Origin: Massilia atriviolacea
GTDB taxonomy: Bacteria; Pseudomonadota; Gammaproteobacteria; Burkholderiales; Burkholderiaceae_D
NCBI RefSeq assembly: GCF_003953935.1
Contig: NZ_RXLQ01000013.1
Coordinates: forward strand, 1-64,000
Direction: 5' to 3'
DNA length: 64,000 bases
The translations under genes were made by a program, and so were the position numbers. Below, piece by piece: positions 45,435 through 52,645 of the stretch. Within the stretch, counting starts at the first letter, position 1. Every line of letters begins with the position of its first letter. The notes below the pieces were generated by a model, which ran no database searches, had not been told where the DNA came from, and saw only the letters and a list, made by a program, of their open reading frames with translations.

Positions 45435-46663
45435 GCGCAATGAACATTGGCGGCAAGAGCATGGACGAGGCGCTGGCCGGCCTGTCCGACATGAGCGGCG
45501 GGATGGTCCCGATCGGCAAGGAAGAACACGAACAGCGCATCGCCCGCGCCCAGGCCTACATGGTCGAGCAGGGCATCGGCGCGGTGTTCCTCAATGCCGG
45601 CACGAATATGCGCTACTTCACCGGCACCAAGTGGTACGCCAGCGAACGCATGGTCGGCGCCATCCTGCCGGCCGTGGGCGCGCTCGAATACATCGCACCC
45701 GTGTTCGAAGAAGGCTCGCTGACCGACTTCATGCTGGTCAAGGGCAAGGTCAACTGCTGGGAGGAGCACGAGAGCCCCTACCAGCTGTTCATCGACGTCC
45801 TGGGACGCATGGGCATCGCCCCGGATGCGGCGCACCCGCCGCGCATCGGCATCTGCGAAAGCGCCGCGTTCTTCATCGCCGACGGCATCGCCCCGCTGGC
45901 CGCCGGCTACGCGCTGGAAAACGCGAAGAGCGTCACCGCCTTCTGCCGCGCGCGCAAGTCGCCCGCCGAGATCGCGCTCATGCAGCGCGTCAAGGACATG
46001 ACGCTGGAAGTGCACAAGGCCGCCGCCAGCATCCTGCACGAAGGGATCACCACGGTGGAGGTGAGCGACTTCATCGCGCGCGCGCACCGCAAGGTGGGCG
46101 CGCCGGGTTCGTATTTTTGCATCGTGCTGTTCGGCGAGGCGACCGCCTATCCGCACGGCGTCAGTTATGCGCAGACCTTACAGTCCGGCGACGTGGTCCT
46201 GATCGATACCGGCTGCCAGGTACATGGCTACATTTCGGACATCACGCGCACCTATGTGTTCGGCGAGATCAGCGAGCGCCAGCGCTTCGTGTGGAATGCG
46301 GAGAAGGCGGCGCAGCTGGCCGCGTTCGGGGCGGCGCAACTGGGCGTGCCGTGCCGCGAGGTGGACGCCGCCGCGCGCGCCTCGCTCGAAGCGAACGGCT
46401 TCGGTCCCGGCTACAAGCTGCCGGGCCTGCCGCACCGCACCGGCCACGGGATCGGCATGGATATCCACGAGTGGCCTTACCTGGTCGGCAGCGACAGCAC
46501 GCCGCTCGACGTGGGCATGTGCTTTTCGAACGAGCCGATGATCTGCATTCCGGGCGAATTCGGGGTGCGCCACGAAGACCACTTCTACATGACGGCGGCG
46601 GGACCGAAGTGGTTCACCGAACCGGCACATTCGATCGACGATCCGTTCGGCATGGGCCGCTAA
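45431..46663 (+). CDS. M24-family metallopeptidase (Xaa-Pro dipeptidase/aminopeptidase-like)
   Basis: This 410-residue cytosolic peptidase of the pita-bread fold has five metal ligands visible in order: Asp in VLIDTGCQ, Asp in SDITRTYVF, His in RTGHGIGMDIHEW, Glu in FSNEPMIC, and Glu in RHEDHF. M24 enzymes cleave X-Pro dipeptides or, in the ectoine hydrolase DoeA group, the ectoine ring. There is no signal peptide. Its start overlaps the dctM stop, so uptake by the TRAP carrier and cleavage inside the cell are coupled. The exact substrate cannot be read from sequence. Confidence 0.88.
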   Translation: MSAMNIGGKSMDEALAGLSDMSGGMVPIGKEEHEQRIARAQAYMVEQGIGAVFLNAGTNMRYFTGTKWYASERMVGAILPAVGALEYIAPVFEEGSLTDFMLVKGKVNCWEEHESPYQLFIDVLGRMGIAPDAAHPPRIGICESAAFFIADGIAPLAAGYALENAKSVTAFCRARKSPAEIALMQRVKDMTLEVHKAAASILHEGITTVEVSDFIARAHRKVGAPGSYFCIVLFGEATAYPHGVSYAQTLQSGDVVLIDTGCQVHGYISDITRTYVFGEISERQRFVWNAEKAAQLAAFGAAQLGVPCREVDAAARASLEANGFGPGYKLPGLPHRTGHGIGMDIHEWPYLVGSDSTPLDVGMCFSNEPMICIPGEFGVRHEDHFYMTAAGPKWFTEPAHSIDDPFGMGR

Positions 46664-46889
46664 ATGCATCGGGCGCGCCGGCTGGCTGGCGCGCAATGAT
46701 TCAATTTATATAACATCCCTGCGCGTACAAGGTGGCCAGATACCAACACCTTTGTATGCAAGCGCATGAAACAGTGTTGCAAACAAGTAGAAAATCCCGC
46801 CTCTGTTACAAAATAAACAAAACATCACGTTTATTTGTTTCCGCTAATCACCTATTATCTCTGGTCGTGGACATACCGGGATAAATCAC

Positions 46890-49055
46890 ATGCAAGAGCA
46901 ACAACGACTCGACGCAGGTGTCGAGGATGACGCTGGCGTCGATCTCGACGCACCCATGCTAACCGCCCAGCTCGATGTTGCTGGTGATGAATCCGTTTCC
47001 GGTGTCCGGCTGGCCACGGCGACCACCGCGCTCCTGTCCAGCGCCGTGCTGGCAGCCTGCGGCGGCAGCGAGGGCTCGGCGATTCCAGCCGGTGGCGTAG
47101 CGGCCCCGCCGGTAATCCTGCCCAACCCGCCGGTGCCGACGCCGGTGGTACCGACGCCCGTGCCGACACCGGTGGTACCGACGCCGGTGCCGACGCCGGT
47201 GGTACCAACGCCGGTGCCGACGCCGGTGCCAACGCCGGTGCCAACTCCCGTGCCGACACCGGTGCCGACGCCGCCCGTTCCGACGCCGCCTGTGCCGACC
47301 CCGGTCAAACCGACGCCAGGCCAGACGGGTCCGACGCCGACCGTGCCGACGCCAACCCCGACAGCTCCGACACCGACCCCGACCGTCCCGACACCGACGC
47401 CGACCGCGCCGACGCCGACAGCGCCAACGCCGACAGCGCCGACGCCGACGCCTACTCCGACGCCTACTCCGACGCCAACGCCGACGCCGACGCCGACCCC
47501 AACCCCCACGCCAACGCCAGTCGGCCCAAAAATCACGCCCGCCGAAGCCTCGCGCTTCCTCGGGCAGGCCTCGATGGGCGCCACGCGCGACCAGATCGCC
47601 CGCGTGCAGCAATTGGGCTACGCCGGCTGGATTACCGAACAGATCGCCATGCCGCGCGGCGAGACGCGCTGGGACTACCTGGTCGGCAAGCGCTACAACA
47701 CGTCCGACCTGAAAAACACCGAAAACGGCCACGACGCCGCTTTCTGGCGCAAGATGATCATCGCGCCCGACACCCTGCGCCAGCGCGTCACCCTGGCGCT
47801 GTCCGAAATCGTGGTCGCGTCGATTACCGGTTTTAGCGCCAGCTGGAGCAATTTTTCGGGCGTCGCGCACATGGACTTGCTGGAGTCCCACGCTTTCGGC
47901 AACTATCGCAGCCTGCTGCAGCAAGTCTCGCTCAGCGCGCCGATGGGCGAATACCTGACCTACCGCGGCAACGTCAAGCTCAACCCGACCACCGGCGCCC
48001 TGCCCGACGAAAACTACGCGCGCGAAGTCATGCAGCTGTTTACCATCGGCCTGGTCCAGCTGAACCTCGACGGCACGCCCAAGCTCAGCAGCGGGCTGCA
48101 GCAGGAAACCTACGGCCTGGACGACATCAGCGGCCTGGCGCGCGTGTTCACCGGCTGGGGCTACGACCTGGCCGGCGGCGACATGAATACGCCCGACTAC
48201 AAGCGCCGTCCGATGATCGTGTCGAGCAACCGGCACGAATCGGGCCCCAAGGAGTTCCTCGACAGCACCATTCCTGCCGGCACCGATGCCCTGACCAGCG
48301 TCACGCGCGCGCTCGACATCATCTTCGCCCATCCCAACGTGGCGCCGTTCATCAGCCGCCAGCTGATCCAGCGCCTGGTGACGAGCAACCCGTCGCCCGC
48401 CTACGTGGCGCGTGTCGCCACCGTCTTCAACAACGATGGCAAAGGCGTCAAGGGCAACCTGGCCAAGGTCGTCAGCGCCATCCTGCTCGACGACGAGGCG
48501 CGCAACGCCAGCCGCCTGAGCGATCCCAATTTCGGCAAGCTGCGCGAGCCGGTGCTGCGGTTTACCGCATGGGCGCGCGCCTTCAAGGCCAACTCGCCAT
48601 CGGACGCCTGGGGTATCGGCAACACTTCCGATCCCGGCACGCGCCTGGGGCAAAGTCCGGGCCGCTCGGGCACCGTCTTCAACTTCTTCCGCCCCGGCTA
48701 CGTGCCGCCCAACAGCGCGATCGCCACTGCGCGCATGGTGGCGCCGGAATTCCAGATCACCAATGAATCGACGGTGGTCGGCTATGTGAACTACATGCAG
48801 GGCGTGGTCAGCCGGGGCGTGAACGATGTCAAGGCCGACTACAGCGCCCTGCTGCCGCTGGCCGAGGCATCCGACAAGCTGGTGGACGAACTGAACCTGG
48901 TGCTGGCGGCCGGGCAGCTGGCGCCGGCGACGGTCAACCTGATCAAGGGCGGGATCGACTCCATGCCCAAAGTCACCGAAGCGCACCGCCTGAACCGCAT
49001 CTACGCCGCCCTGGTGCTGGTGCTCGCCTCACCCGAATTCATCGTCCAGAAATAG
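46890..49055 (+). CDS. DUF1800 family protein with Pro-Thr-Val repeat linker
   Basis: This 721-residue protein has an acidic N-terminus, then a hydrophobic stretch ending in a lipobox-like VLAAC with Cys57, so a lipid anchor is possible but the leader is long. Residues about 80-210 are almost only Pro, Thr and Val/Ala (PTPVPTPVV, then PTPTPTP), a flexible stalk. The DUF1800 domain covers residues ~215-721, from [20 protein letters not shown] on, with [16 protein letters not shown] and a late [16 protein letters not shown]1800 proteins are uncharacterised and occur beside DUF1501 proteins, as here with a 9-base gap. The stalk suggests exposure on the cell surface. Confidence 0.88.
47129..47525 (+). 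repeat. In-frame Pro-Thr-Val repeat tract
   Basis: Repeated units of CCGACGCCGGTG and, later, CCGACGCCGACG encode the PTPV and PTPT stalk of the DUF1800 protein. The units keep frame (multiples of 6 bp), so changes in copy number would alter stalk length without frameshift. The opposite strand shows a matching Gly/Val open frame, a shadow. Confidence 0.85.
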
Positions 49056-49064
49056 GAAGCAGCC

Positions 49065-50465
49065 ATGCACAACAAAAATGGAACCAATGCATCGCGCCGC
49101 GCCTTCCTGCAACGCGCGTCCGCCCTGTCGGTCGCCGGCGTGGCCACGCCGTGGGCGCTCAACCTTGCCGCCATCTCCGAGGCCAGCGCGGCCACGGCTA
49201 CCGACTACAAGGCGCTGGTCTGCGTATTTCTGTACGGCGGCAACGATTACGCCAACACCGTCACCCCCTACGATCCGACCAACCATGCGCTGTACCAGTC
49301 GTACCGGCCGAATTTTGCGCACAGCCGCGCCGCATTGGCCGCGACCGCGCTGAACCCGACCGTGGTGCCGCTCGACTCGGGCGGCTTCCAGCACCAGTAC
49401 GCGCTGGCGCCCAACCTGGCGCGGCTGATGCCGCTGTTTAACGACGGCAAGCTGGCCGTGATCTTGAACGTGGGCAACCTTGTGCAGCCGACCACCAAGC
49501 TCCAGTACACCCAGAAGACCGGCCGCCTGCCGCCCAAACTGTTCTCGCACAACGACCAGCAATCGGTGTTCCAGTCCTCGTCGCCGGAAGGCGCCACCTC
49601 CGGCTGGGGCGGACGCATCGGCGACCTGTTCCAGTCGAGCAATATCAACTCGACCTTTACCTGCATTAATGTGTCGAATAATGCGGTGTTCTTGTCGGGC
49701 AATACGGCGGTGCAATACCAGGTCTCGACCAATGGATCGGTGCCGCTGGCGGGTTTGAAGAATTCGCTGTTCGGCTCGGCCACCTCCTCGGCCGCGCTGC
49801 GCACCCTGATGACCCAGCAGCGCAGCAATATGCTGGAAAACGAATACAACCGCATCAGCAAGCGCTCGATCGAAGCGAACGAGGTGCTGACCGGGGCCTT
49901 GAGCTCGACGCCGGCGCCGAGTACGCCTTTCCCGACCGGGAACAACCTGGGCGACCAGTTGAAACTGGTGGCGCGCATGATCGCCGCCGGTCCGAGCCTG
50001 GGCGCGAAGCGGCAAGTGTTTTTCGTCTCGATGGGCGGCTTCGACAATCACGACGGCATGGCGACCAACCATCCGACCCTGATGACCCGGCTGGGCGACG
50101 CGATGGCGGCGTTTTACGCGGCCACGGTGGAGTTGGGCGTGTCCGAGAAGGTGACCACGTTTACGGCCTCGGACTTCGGCCGCACCATGGCGGGCAACGC
50201 CGACGGCTCGGATCATGGCTGGGGCAGCATGCACTTCGTGATGGGCGGGGCGGTCAAGGGCAAGCGCTTTTACGGCACCGCGCCGATCGTGGCCAACGGC
50301 GGCCCGGACGACGTCGGCCAGGGCCGCCTGCTGCCGACCACCTCGGTCGACCAGTTCGCGGCCACCATGGGCGCGTGGCTGGGGGTGTCGAACAGCGAGT
50401 TGCTGGCGCTGCTGCCGAACCTGGGCAATTACAACGCGAGTACGCGCAATATGGGGTTTGTGTAA
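49065..50465 (+). CDS. Tat-exported DUF1501 family protein
   Basis: This 466-residue DUF1501 protein has a twin-arginine signal (SRRAFLQRASALSVAGVAT, R11R12) ending near EASA. DUF1501 members relate to the sulfatase/alkaline phosphatase superfamily. VFFVSMGGFDNHDGMATNHP and TFTASDFGRTMAGNADGSDH are conserved motifs, with Asp/His residues that could bind metal. Tat export means it folds in the cytosol, probably with cofactor, before crossing. It is partnered with the DUF1800 gene 9 bases upstream. Role unknown. Confidence 0.88.
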   Translation: MHNKNGTNASRRAFLQRASALSVAGVATPWALNLAAISEASAATATDYKALVCVFLYGGNDYANTVTPYDPTNHALYQSYRPNFAHSRAALAATALNPTVVPLDSGGFQHQYALAPNLARLMPLFNDGKLAVILNVGNLVQPTTKLQYTQKTGRLPPKLFSHNDQQSVFQSSSPEGATSGWGGRIGDLFQSSNINSTFTCINVSNNAVFLSGNTAVQYQVSTNGSVPLAGLKNSLFGSATSSAALRTLMTQQRSNMLENEYNRISKRSIEANEVLTGALSSTPAPSTPFPTGNNLGDQLKLVARMIAAGPSLGAKRQVFFVSMGGFDNHDGMATNHPTLMTRLGDAMAAFYAATVELGVSEKVTTFTASDFGRTMAGNADGSDHGWGSMHFVMGGAVKGKRFYGTAPIVANGGPDDVGQGRLLPTTSVDQFAATMGAWLGVSNSELLALLPNLGNYNASTRNMGFV

Positions 50466-50533
50466 TCGTTCAGAAAAACGGACGAGAACGGCGCGCGCTT
50501 GCGCCGCTGACCTGTGCGCCGTCCATGCTCCCT

Positions 50534-50568
50534 CATTCCCGCTTAATGAACCGACCCAAGCGGGAATG
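50534..50568. terminator. REP-like hairpin between DUF1501 and paaZ
   Basis: CATTCCCGCTT (50534-50544) pairs perfectly with AAGCGGGAATG (50558-50568) around 13 bases. It lies between the convergent DUF1501 and paaZ genes and is a variant of the CGTTCCCGC palindromes at 21335 and 40986. It lacks a T-run, so it may act as a REP or a factor-assisted terminator. Confidence 0.6.
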
Positions 50569-50593
50569 ACGGCTTCGAAGGTATCGGCTCCGC

Positions 50594-52645
50594 TTACCCC
50601 TTCTTCATCACCAGCGTCAGAATATCGTAACTGGCCACCAGCTCGTCGTGCTGGTTGGTGACCTGCACATCCCACGCCACCACGCCCTGCCCGACGCCCT
50701 TGTCGTCGGTGCGGTTGCGGTCGACCTTGCGCTTGCAGGTCAGGCGCGCGCGGATGGTGTCGCCGATCGCCACCGGGGTAATGAAGCGCAGGTTATCCAG
50801 CCCGTAGTTGGCCAGCACCGGTCCCGGCGCCGGCGACACGAACAGGCCAGCCGCCGCCGACAGCACAAAGTAACCGTGCGCGATGCGCTTGCCGAACTGC
50901 GAATCCCTGGCCGCGATCTCGTCGAAGTGCATGTAGAAATAGTCGCCCGAGATGCCGCCGAAGTTGACGATATCGGCCTCGCTCACCGTGCGCCGGTGCG
51001 TGAGCAGCGAGTCGCCCATCTGGAGTTCCTCGAAATACTTGCGGAACGGGTGCACGTCGCTCTCGCGCACCGCCGCGCCGCGCACGTATTCGCCGGTGAT
51101 CGCCGCCAGCATGGTCGGCGAACCCTGTACCGCGGCGCGCTGCAGGAAGTGGCGCACCGCGCGGATGCCGCCCAGCTCCTCGCCGCCGCCGGCGCGTCCC
51201 GGACCGCCGTGCTTCAACTGCGGCAGGGGCGAGCCGTGGCCGGTCGAATCGACCGCCGCTTCGCGCTCGAGCACCAGCACGCGCCCGTGCGAGGCCGCCG
51301 CCACCGGCACCGCGCGCGCCGCGATCGCCGTGTCCTTGGTCACCAGGGTGCTGACCAGGCTCCCCTTGCCGCGCGCGGCCAGCGCCAGCGCTTCGTCCAG
51401 GTCGGAATAGGTCATCATCGTGCTGACCGGGCCGAAGGCTTCGATATCGTGCACGGCGTCGTTGCGCATGCCGTCGCGGCACAGCAGCAGGGTCGGCGAG
51501 AAGAAGGCGCCGTTGACCGCGCCCTCGCCCACCGGATTGAAACCGTCCTTGGCGCCGAACAGGATCTCGTTACCGCGCGCGAGCATCTCGACCCGCTCGC
51601 CGACGTCGCGCTGCTGGTCCATAGACGCCAGTGCGCCCATGCGCACTTCCTTGACCGAGGGGTCGCCCACGACGATCTTCGCCAGCCGTTCGCGCAGGCG
51701 CTCGCCGACCGCTTCGACGTGCTGCCTGGGCACGATGATGCGGCGGATCGCGGTGCACTTCTGGCCGGCCTTGCCGGTCATCTCGCGCGCGACTTCCTTG
51801 ACGAACAGGTCGAACTCCACATCGTCGGGCGTCACGTCCGGACCCAGGATGGCGCAGTTGAGCGAATCGGCTTCGGCGGTAAACGGCACCGAATGCGCGA
51901 TCAGGTTCTTGTTCACGCGCAGCCTGGCGGCGGTATCGGCCGAACCGGTAAAGGTGACCACGTCGGCGCCGCTCAGGCGGTCGAGCAGGTCGCCGGTGCC
52001 GCCGATGACCAGCTGCAGCGCGCCGGCCGGCAGCAGGCCGGAATCGTGCATCATGCGCACCACCGCTTCGGTCAGGTAGCTGGTGGCGGTGGCAGGTTTG
52101 CCGATGCACGGCATCGCCGCCAGGAAGCTCGGCGCGAATTTTTCGAGCAGGCCCCAGATCGGGAAGTTGAAGGCGTTGATGTGCACCGCCAGCCCGCCGC
52201 GCGGCACCAGGATGTGGGTGCCGGCAAAGCCACCGTTCTTGCCCAGCGCGAGCGCCGGGCCTTCGTGCAGCACATTGCTCGACGGGAGTTCGCGGCTGCC
52301 CATGCTGGCGTAGGCGAACAGGGTGCCGATGCCGCCTTCGATATCGACCCAGCTGTCCGGGCGGGTCGCGCCGGTCAGGTGCGAGATCGCGTACAGCTCT
52401 TCCTTGCGCTCCATCAGGTACAGGGCCAGCGCCTTGAGGCAGGCCGCGCGCTTCTGGAAGTCGAGCGACATCAGGGCCGGCACGCCGGTGCCGCGCGCGT
52501 AGGTGACCGCTTCGTCGAAGTCGATCTTTTCGGCGTGGGTGTGGTAAATCAGGCTGTTATCGAGTGCGCTGTGCAGCGGCACCGAGGCTTCGGCGCCGAG
52601 CCAGCGCCCGCCGATCAGGCTTTGCAGGGTCGATATGGTTTGCAT
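50594..52645 (-). CDS. paaZ: Bifunctional oxepin-CoA hydrolase / semialdehyde dehydrogenase PaaZ
   Basis: PaaZ opens the oxepin-CoA ring (MaoC hydratase part) and oxidises the resulting semialdehyde to 3-oxo-5,6-dehydrosuberyl-CoA (aldehyde dehydrogenase part). The 683 residues match. The dehydrogenase carries catalytic Glu258 (FTAEADSLN) and Cys297 (GQKCTAI); the MaoC domain (~540-683) has the Asp/His pair in DSQFGKRIAHGY. It is the last gene of the operon, behind paaY, and its leader holds an AGAAC-type pentanucleotide tract. The start is the ATG at 52645 with GAGGAG before it. Confidence 0.95.
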   Translation of the reverse strand: MQTISTLQSLIGGRWLGAEASVPLHSALDNSLIYHTHAEKIDFDEAVTYARGTGVPALMSLDFQKRAACLKALALYLMERKEELYAISHLTGATRPDSWVDIEGGIGTLFAYASMGSRELPSSNVLHEGPALALGKNGGFAGTHILVPRGGLAVHINAFNFPIWGLLEKFAPSFLAAMPCIGKPATATSYLTEAVVRMMHDSGLLPAGALQLVIGGTGDLLDRLSGADVVTFTGSADTAARLRVNKNLIAHSVPFTAEADSLNCAILGPDVTPDDVEFDLFVKEVAREMTGKAGQKCTAIRRIIVPRQHVEAVGERLRERLAKIVVGDPSVKEVRMGALASMDQQRDVGERVEMLARGNEILFGAKDGFNPVGEGAVNGAFFSPTLLLCRDGMRNDAVHDIEAFGPVSTMMTYSDLDEALALAARGKGSLVSTLVTKDTAIAARAVPVAAASHGRVLVLEREAAVDSTGHGSPLPQLKHGGPGRAGGGEELGGIRAVRHFLQRAAVQGSPTMLAAITGEYVRGAAVRESDVHPFRKYFEELQMGDSLLTHRRTVSEADIVNFGGISGDYFYMHFDEIAARDSQFGKRIAHGYFVLSAAAGLFVSPAPGPVLANYGLDNLRFITPVAIGDTIRARLTCKRKVDRNRTDDKGVGQGVVAWDVQVTNQHDELVASYDILTLVMKKG

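Follow-up and report, generated by a model that had tools for sequence, protein, structure and literature searches.

A widespread DUF1800-DUF1501 gene pair in Massilia atriviolacea: a putative two-subunit envelope enzyme with a conserved Tat motif

The stretch of DNA analysed here (the window) comprises 64,000 nucleotides, positions 1 to 64,000 of the forward strand of contig NZ_RXLQ01000013.1 of Massilia atriviolacea (assembly GCF_003953935.1), and contains at positions 46,890-50,465 two adjacent genes of the uncharacterised families DUF1800 and DUF1501. We found that these families occur as a pair, nearly always in the same gene order, that DUF1501 carries a conserved twin-arginine translocation (Tat) motif and has a predicted fold of the alkaline phosphatase superfamily, and that many DUF1800 proteins lack an export signal of their own. 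The reading that we prefer, and which we judge to have slightly more for it than against it, is that the two proteins form a pre-assembled enzyme complex that is exported via Tat on the signal of DUF1501, with DUF1800 hitchhiking. The pair as such is known, widespread and uncharacterised: an account from 2016 places a DUF1800-DUF1501 operon beside bacterial chitin synthases and already mentions the Tat motif on DUF1501 (PMC5122149). The original prediction made from this DNA, which saw in the pair a good candidate for an undescribed system, was therefore worded too strongly. What the window holds is an ordinary genomic find with a testable new inference on export and assembly. New here are the predicted fold of DUF1501 with its invariant D-x-H ... 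D-H set, the model of DUF1800, the joint model of both proteins and the survey of their export signals.

The DUF1800 gene (46890..49055, + strand) encodes 721 amino acids and matches PF08811 with an E-value of 8.9e-86 over residues 222-718 (289.1 bits against a gathering score of 26.1). The DUF1501 gene (49065..50465, + strand) encodes 466 amino acids and matches PF07394 with an E-value of 6.9e-37 over residues 49-446 (128 bits against a gathering score of 27). According to the list of open reading frames (ORFs) the two are separated by 9 bases (49056-49064), just as had been described originally. Searches with NCBIfam and PHROGs gave no match better than E 0.07, and Rfam gave no match on the window. 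The closest named relative found for the DUF1501 protein is that of Massilia aquatica, with 94% identity. The genome of the window holds two DUF1800/DUF1501 pairs. The second one (locus L053, 7685-10540, on contig C11) represents a distant subgroup, in which DUF1800 has a basic signal of the general secretory (Sec) type and DUF1501 a twin-arginine (RR) signal.

The pairing was assessed in a sample spread over 299 Pseudomonadota genomes, that of the window included. DUF1800 was found in 67 of these genomes, all of which (67/67) also had DUF1501, and DUF1501 was found in 71, in 68 of them above the cut-off. At the level of individual matches, 91 of the 93 DUF1800s adjoined a DUF1501 on the same strand, with DUF1800 coming first in 90 of the 91 cases; the two unpaired matches were a fragment at a contig end and a 22-bit match containing stops. 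Eight of the 99 DUF1501 matches were unpaired, and five of these eight scored below the family cut-off. Likewise, 78 of the 80 loci in a set of genome contigs were paired and the remaining two were cut by contig ends. Caulobacter vibrioides likewise encodes members of the two families. These numbers bear out the earlier suggestion that the adjacency is functional, and the pair, not the stalk on the DUF1800 protein of the window, is the unit.

The predicted core fold relates DUF1501 to the phosphatase/sulfatase superfamily, in line with the kinship proposed at the outset. The DUF1501 part of the model aligned to choline sulfatase with a VIA-align Z-score of 17.2 (251 residues, root-mean-square deviation 3.4), and to nucleotide pyrophosphatases and the phosphatase PafA with Z-scores of 16-17. 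In a Foldseek search with the fused model (see below) the alkaline phosphatase superfamily leads, with probabilities up to 1.00 and a best E-value of only 2.9e-3. A search by sequence for a relative in the PDB returned one match (E 0.6), which was judged to be due to chance. An alignment was made of 172 DUF1501 sequences, 166 paired with DUF1800 and six with PSD1 (DUF1553), leaving out the short L125 and L240 with its reversed gene order. The candidate metal ligands in this alignment are D327-x-H329 (50043..50051, + strand), present in 172/172, D383-H384 (50211..50216, + strand), with the Asp in 171 and the His in all 172, and D61 (49245..49247, + strand), which is Asp in 166/166 DUF1800-paired and Ser in the six PSD1-paired sequences; H162 is also invariant (172/172). 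As far as sequence comparison can tell, this invariant set of Asp and His residues looks like a retained metal site. The putative Tat signal peptide (49065..49190, + strand) contains the motif SRRAFLQ, with a cleavage site after A42 that was read from the sequence. The twin arginines are aligned in 172/172 DUF1501s and TatC is encoded in the genome of the window, which agrees with the Tat export that had been predicted for this protein.

The DUF1800 domain (510 amino acids; 47523..49052, + strand) was modelled confidently by AlphaFold2, with a predicted local distance difference test (pLDDT) score of 91.5 and a predicted template modelling (pTM) score of 0.91, and is almost all helix. In domain numbering, the residues of the motif N164-x2-R167-E168 are invariant in 160/160 aligned DUF1800s. 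By sequence, no relatives of DUF1800 were recovered from the PDB. Foldseek found no solved relative of the domain (best E 0.59, with probabilities of at most 0.06 among the best 50 of 78 matches), although a missing match is no proof of a new fold. The N-terminal domain of the S-layer protein RsaA, the top VIA-align match with a Z-score of 3.3, covered residues 344-510 only and was rejected as too weak.

Since both genes of the window lie in one frame, their read-through product could be modelled as an artificial fusion, using an alignment in which 17 rows were similarly fused and 52 were single. The fusion model reached a pTM of 0.86, though around 45 connecting residues were disordered. Residues 381-420 of DUF1800, which alone had mean pLDDT values of 57/55/62/64, rose to 64/78/85/89 in the fusion. 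The better order of this segment and the pTM are what a real interface would give in such a model, without constituting proof of one.

The export signals were read in 88 of the 91 pairs of the sample, two pairs of genome G000 and one of G033 being left out. A hydrophobicity rule was used to classify 86 of the DUF1800s, excluding L207, which lies at a contig edge, and L180, whose signal is far upstream: 44 had no signal, 6 a Tat-like and 36 a Sec-like signal, where by eye around five of the 36 are really signal-less, one Tat-like assignment (L235) is doubtful, and weak signals may be missed, the rule recognising just 52 out of 87 genuine Tat segments. A count on the basis of start codons, which is free of this rule and assumes that the Pfam match starts close to where the domain truly begins, showed 18 of 87 DUF1800s to have no possible start codon more than 20 residues ahead of the Pfam match, leaving no room for a signal peptide. 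In 12 more no ATG lies farther ahead than that, so that 30 of the 87 are without an ATG that would give a signal. The DUF1501 partners of these 30 showed the strict RRx-hydrophobic pattern in 28 cases, and the other two had RR without the pattern. Judged by the hydrophobicity rule, none of the 47 DUF1800s first called signal-less, 29 of the 30 among them, has a frameshifted signal. Further signal-less DUF1800s were recognised by eye in the genome-contig set (L081, L120, L147) and among the relatives (L049, L052, L055). In four loci of the classified sample (L157, L161, L179, L205) DUF1800 has a Tat-like twin-arginine signal of its own. According to the original prediction, a cytosolic location of either partner would refute a joint role in the envelope; this point gains interest from the many signal-less DUF1800s, which co-export would reconcile with such a role.

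Considering that DUF1501 is Tat-signalled, that DUF1800 is often signal-less and that packing of the two is predicted, which together make up the pattern of a Tat hitchhiker pair, we infer that the complex assembles before export. DUF1501 and DUF1800 would then be the subunits that make up a single envelope enzyme. Catalysis would fall to DUF1501, as a member of the alkaline phosphatase/sulfatase superfamily that acts as a metal-dependent hydrolase or transferase, and DUF1800 would be its dedicated, almost all-helical partner, which would pack against it and whose invariant N/R/E triad probably completes the substrate site. DUF1501 would fold and bind DUF1800 in the cytoplasm and the complex would exit via Tat on the DUF1501 signal, such that DUF1800 could do without a signal. 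Where DUF1800 does have one, as in the lineage of the window, either export route would be possible, and in that lineage the lipobox and the long Pro-Thr-Val linker of DUF1800 could tether the complex to a membrane and let it extend away from there. As to the substrate, our guess would be a phosphate or sulfate ester of a polymer in the envelope or outside the cell.

The N-terminal part of the DUF1800 protein of the window bears directly on the export route. It consists of 40 mostly acidic residues (residues 1-40; 46890..47009, + strand), a weakly hydrophobic segment with the lipobox LAAC and the putative lipid-attachment residue Cys57 (47010..47060, + strand), a short Gly/Ser/Ala/Pro patch and a Pro-Thr-Val stalk of 133 residues (79-211; 47124..47522, + strand), after which the 510-residue domain follows. 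A lipobox pattern precedes the domain in 66 of the 75 window-like relatives that were not flagged as truncated, and because of this recurrence the lipobox is not a product of chance, so that the possible lipid anchor put forward earlier holds. The same lipobox, together with the Sec-type N-termini of the C11-type members, would agree with separate export, in which DUF1800 travels by Sec as a lipoprotein and DUF1501 by Tat, the two act jointly or sequentially in the envelope, and the signal-less DUF1800s rely on a signal that is internal or escapes recognition. Against such separate export stand the 18 of 87 DUF1800s in which a signal would not fit ahead of the domain whichever start codon is used, and also the charge of the n-region. 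In 65 lipobox relatives its mean net charge is -2.6 when taken from the farthest start and -1.6 from the nearest, versus +1.75 for a background set of 12 lipoproteins selected for having a lipobox close to the first ATG; one of the 12 is negative as well. The charge is zero or below in 60/65 and 57/65 of these relatives, respectively, although the relatives are not independent of each other. All in all, we consider separate export a possible but not a probable arrangement. The protein of the window has the lipobox Cys of a canonical Sec lipoprotein and a long acidic n-region in place of the short basic one, and it is not filed as such a lipoprotein.

The stalk of about 130 PTPV/PTPT residues that had been described was recovered with its 133 residues and tandem arrays (47128-47518). 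It is common to same-genus relatives, in which its length varies, and a stalk as long as that of the window is confined to close relatives. Other relatives have a short linker of the APAP or PTP kind, a Gly-rich stretch, a domain (Ig-like, PKD, TIG or DUF4214) or no N-terminal region, and long Pro-rich stretches recur in distant members (PTPT in L180 and APAP in L236). The stalk can tether and space the domain, and the pair may be exposed at the surface. As an extra of its lineage the stalk does not define the system, contrary to the emphasis it had received at first. A separate feature of ten loci (L089, L100, L105, L112, L114, L116, L121, L127, L132 and L141) is a recurring region of around 90 residues (like YRYYPxTGNYLGV...VYLLGP) between the lipobox and the DUF1800 domain, which had no Pfam match in the two members tried (L089 and L116).

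TorD is a proofreading chaperone for a Tat substrate, and in the signal-less lineages DUF1800 could play a similar cytoplasmic role, holding DUF1501 until it is folded or metallated and then staying behind. The almost all-helical fold of DUF1800, the position of its gene immediately upstream of that of a Tat substrate and the lack of a signal in 30 of the 87 proteins would all suit a chaperone. Many relatives, however, the protein of the window among them, have lipobox, Sec-like or Tat-like signals, which implies that DUF1800 works outside in those cases. Furthermore, the presence of a signal changes 12 times on a quick tree of DUF1800, and at least 10 of these changes are forced by starred branches. 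The tree omits L158, L200, L207 and L180 as well as 36 of the 153 labelled rows, all 36 window-like; L075, L083, L099 and L137, which are cut or frame-disturbed, are unlabelled, and some labels are doubtful and can add changes. Flips this frequent are easier to square with a single function and two export routes than with two functions, and we regard the chaperone role as unlikely.

Several observations weigh against the preferred reading, in which DUF1501 carries a pre-assembled DUF1800 through Tat. The DUF1800 of the window has its own lipobox, whereas the partner in a Tat hitchhiker pair is without a signal; the pair of the window is not filed as a hitchhiker and may work like one. Sec-like signals occur on 36 of the 86 DUF1800s and, outside that count, on the DUF1800 of the second pair in the window's genome, so that export driven by DUF1501 is not needed everywhere. 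In L171, the DUF1501 partner of a signal-less DUF1800 has the RR with no hydrophobic segment behind it. The limits of the hydrophobicity rule and the assumption behind the start-codon count, both given above, belong here as well. With regard to the joint model, residues 141-200 of DUF1800, which hold the invariant triad, drop in pLDDT in the fusion (e.g. from 91 to 79), the five fusion models span a mean pLDDT of 86.4 to 79.4, and the predicted interface derives from one artificial fusion, without predicted aligned error values or an unrelated-partner control. As for catalysis, no canonical Ser/Thr/Cys nucleophile was identified in DUF1501: S161 is Ala in 4/88 sequences and is replaced by N, T or V where DUF1501 is paired with PSD1.

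The two genes probably form one transcription unit with its own promoter, because the around 120 bases upstream are conserved, unlike the DNA that precedes them. This noncoding region (46766..46889, + strand), which contains the inverted repeat AAATAAAC...GTTTATTT and the sequence TATTAT, is near-identical except for a short variable stretch in five sequences, those of the window and of four same-genus genomes, and its 30-base core occurs only once in the genome. A sigma-70 scan of 46500-50800 gave no match.

Neighbouring genes gave no clue to the substrate, as none was constant across the loci compared. In the first locus set the common neighbours stem from same-genus synteny, which extends to one other genus of the family (L051). 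Among the 80 genome-contig loci the commonest other cluster (11 loci) is an antisense frame of the pair itself, and the next-commonest neighbour is a coenzyme A-transferase pair, located upstream in five Burkholderiales loci (L091, L096, L102, L103 and L106) and downstream in one alphaproteobacterium (L147), with both subunits present in five of the six and the Pfam identification made on L091. In 4 of 14 same-genus loci (L040 3948-6134, L042 3506-5677, L044 3565-5739 and L045 10603-12777; Pfam on L044) DUF1501 is followed by a same-strand PAS-GAF-GGDEF-EAL gene at a distance of around 40-100 bases, and the window has no such gene at that position. A neighbour of this cyclic-di-GMP type would fit a surface or biofilm role. 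For pairs beside bacterial chitin synthases, PMC5122149 proposed a module that matures polysaccharides in connection with chitin-synthase-like polymers, and the co-localisation published there for several Proteobacteria speaks for it. As an explanation of the pair this is very unlikely given that this genome has no PF03142 match and that no neighbour is constant; it could describe a single use of the module at most. Two loci show rearrangements. In L041 (7417-13082) the pair is duplicated in tandem, with the first DUF1501 shortened to 301 amino acids, and the duplication is flanked by three copies of a repeated 476-/91-amino acid element, perhaps an insertion sequence. In L051 (6441-7865) DUF1501 is broken into two ORFs beside an intact DUF1800.

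A PSD1 protein adjoins an RR-bearing DUF1501 in all six loci examined, from one Planctomycetota, one Bacteroidota and four Pseudomonadota, and comes first in five of them. As PSD1 thus occupies the place of DUF1800 beside DUF1501, the homology of the two was examined. A PSD1 profile built from eight sequences aligned with a DUF1800 subset profile over one region (score 37.5, P 0.0017, probability 16%) and with the wider DUF1800 profile at a probability of 4% (P 0.011). The score of 37.5 exceeds those of all 41 unrelated control clusters for PSD1 (best 27.5) and of reversed profiles (15-16), but with the DUF1800 profile one of the 41 clusters reached 32.7, which shows that scores in the thirties arise by chance. 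The evidence for homology, in the form of one shared motif region, is suggestive only. Separately, 25 contigs of the IMG/VR viral collection (L250-L274) match the PSD1 alignment, 24 of them with 25-31% identity, and represent either contamination or real phage genes. Tentatively, and with less confidence than for the complex itself, we propose that DUF1800/DUF1501 could be a very widespread non-redox Tat hitchhiker family, in which a folded metallohydrolase would take its helical, often signal-less subunit along, DUF1800 and the planctomycete PSCyt2/PSD1 proteins would be divergent versions of the same subunit and the DUF1800 fold would be one without a solved representative.

Roughly one in five of the sampled Pseudomonadota genomes carries the two families, and no functional study of DUF1800 or DUF1501 was found in the open-access literature, which does not prove that none exists. 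If DUF1501 indeed carries DUF1800 via Tat, this would explain why the genes are nearly inseparable, and would extend Tat co-export beyond cofactor-loaded redox enzymes.

Among the known systems close to the pair of the window, the chitin-synthase-linked operons share the same two families, their adjacency and the Tat motif on DUF1501 (PMC5122149). They differ in the chitin synthase itself, since the genome of the window is without a PF03142 match, and the description of the operon in that paper includes no proposal of a fold, a complex or co-export. The pairs of PSD1/PSCyt2 (DUF1553/DUF1549) with DUF1501 are alike in having a partner gene beside an RR-bearing DUF1501, but the partners belong to other Pfam families than DUF1800, and a cytochrome c domain may form part of the PSD1 protein; PSCyt2 and PSCyt3 genes have been described as usually adjoining unknown gene families, with nothing known of their functions (see PMC5615132). 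With regard to fold, DUF1501 resembles choline sulfatase, the nucleotide pyrophosphatases and PafA, yet at around 10% identity, with no canonical nucleophile identified and with a regular second subunit. In the established Tat hitchhiker pairs, such as the hydrogenase HybO/HybC, formate dehydrogenase and PaoABC, one subunit has the Tat signal and its partner has none (PMC4273604, PMC10924467). These are redox enzymes with inserted cofactors, whereas the carrier here looks like a metallohydrolase, and unlike the signal-less partners of the HybO/HybC type, DUF1800 keeps a signal of its own in some lineages.

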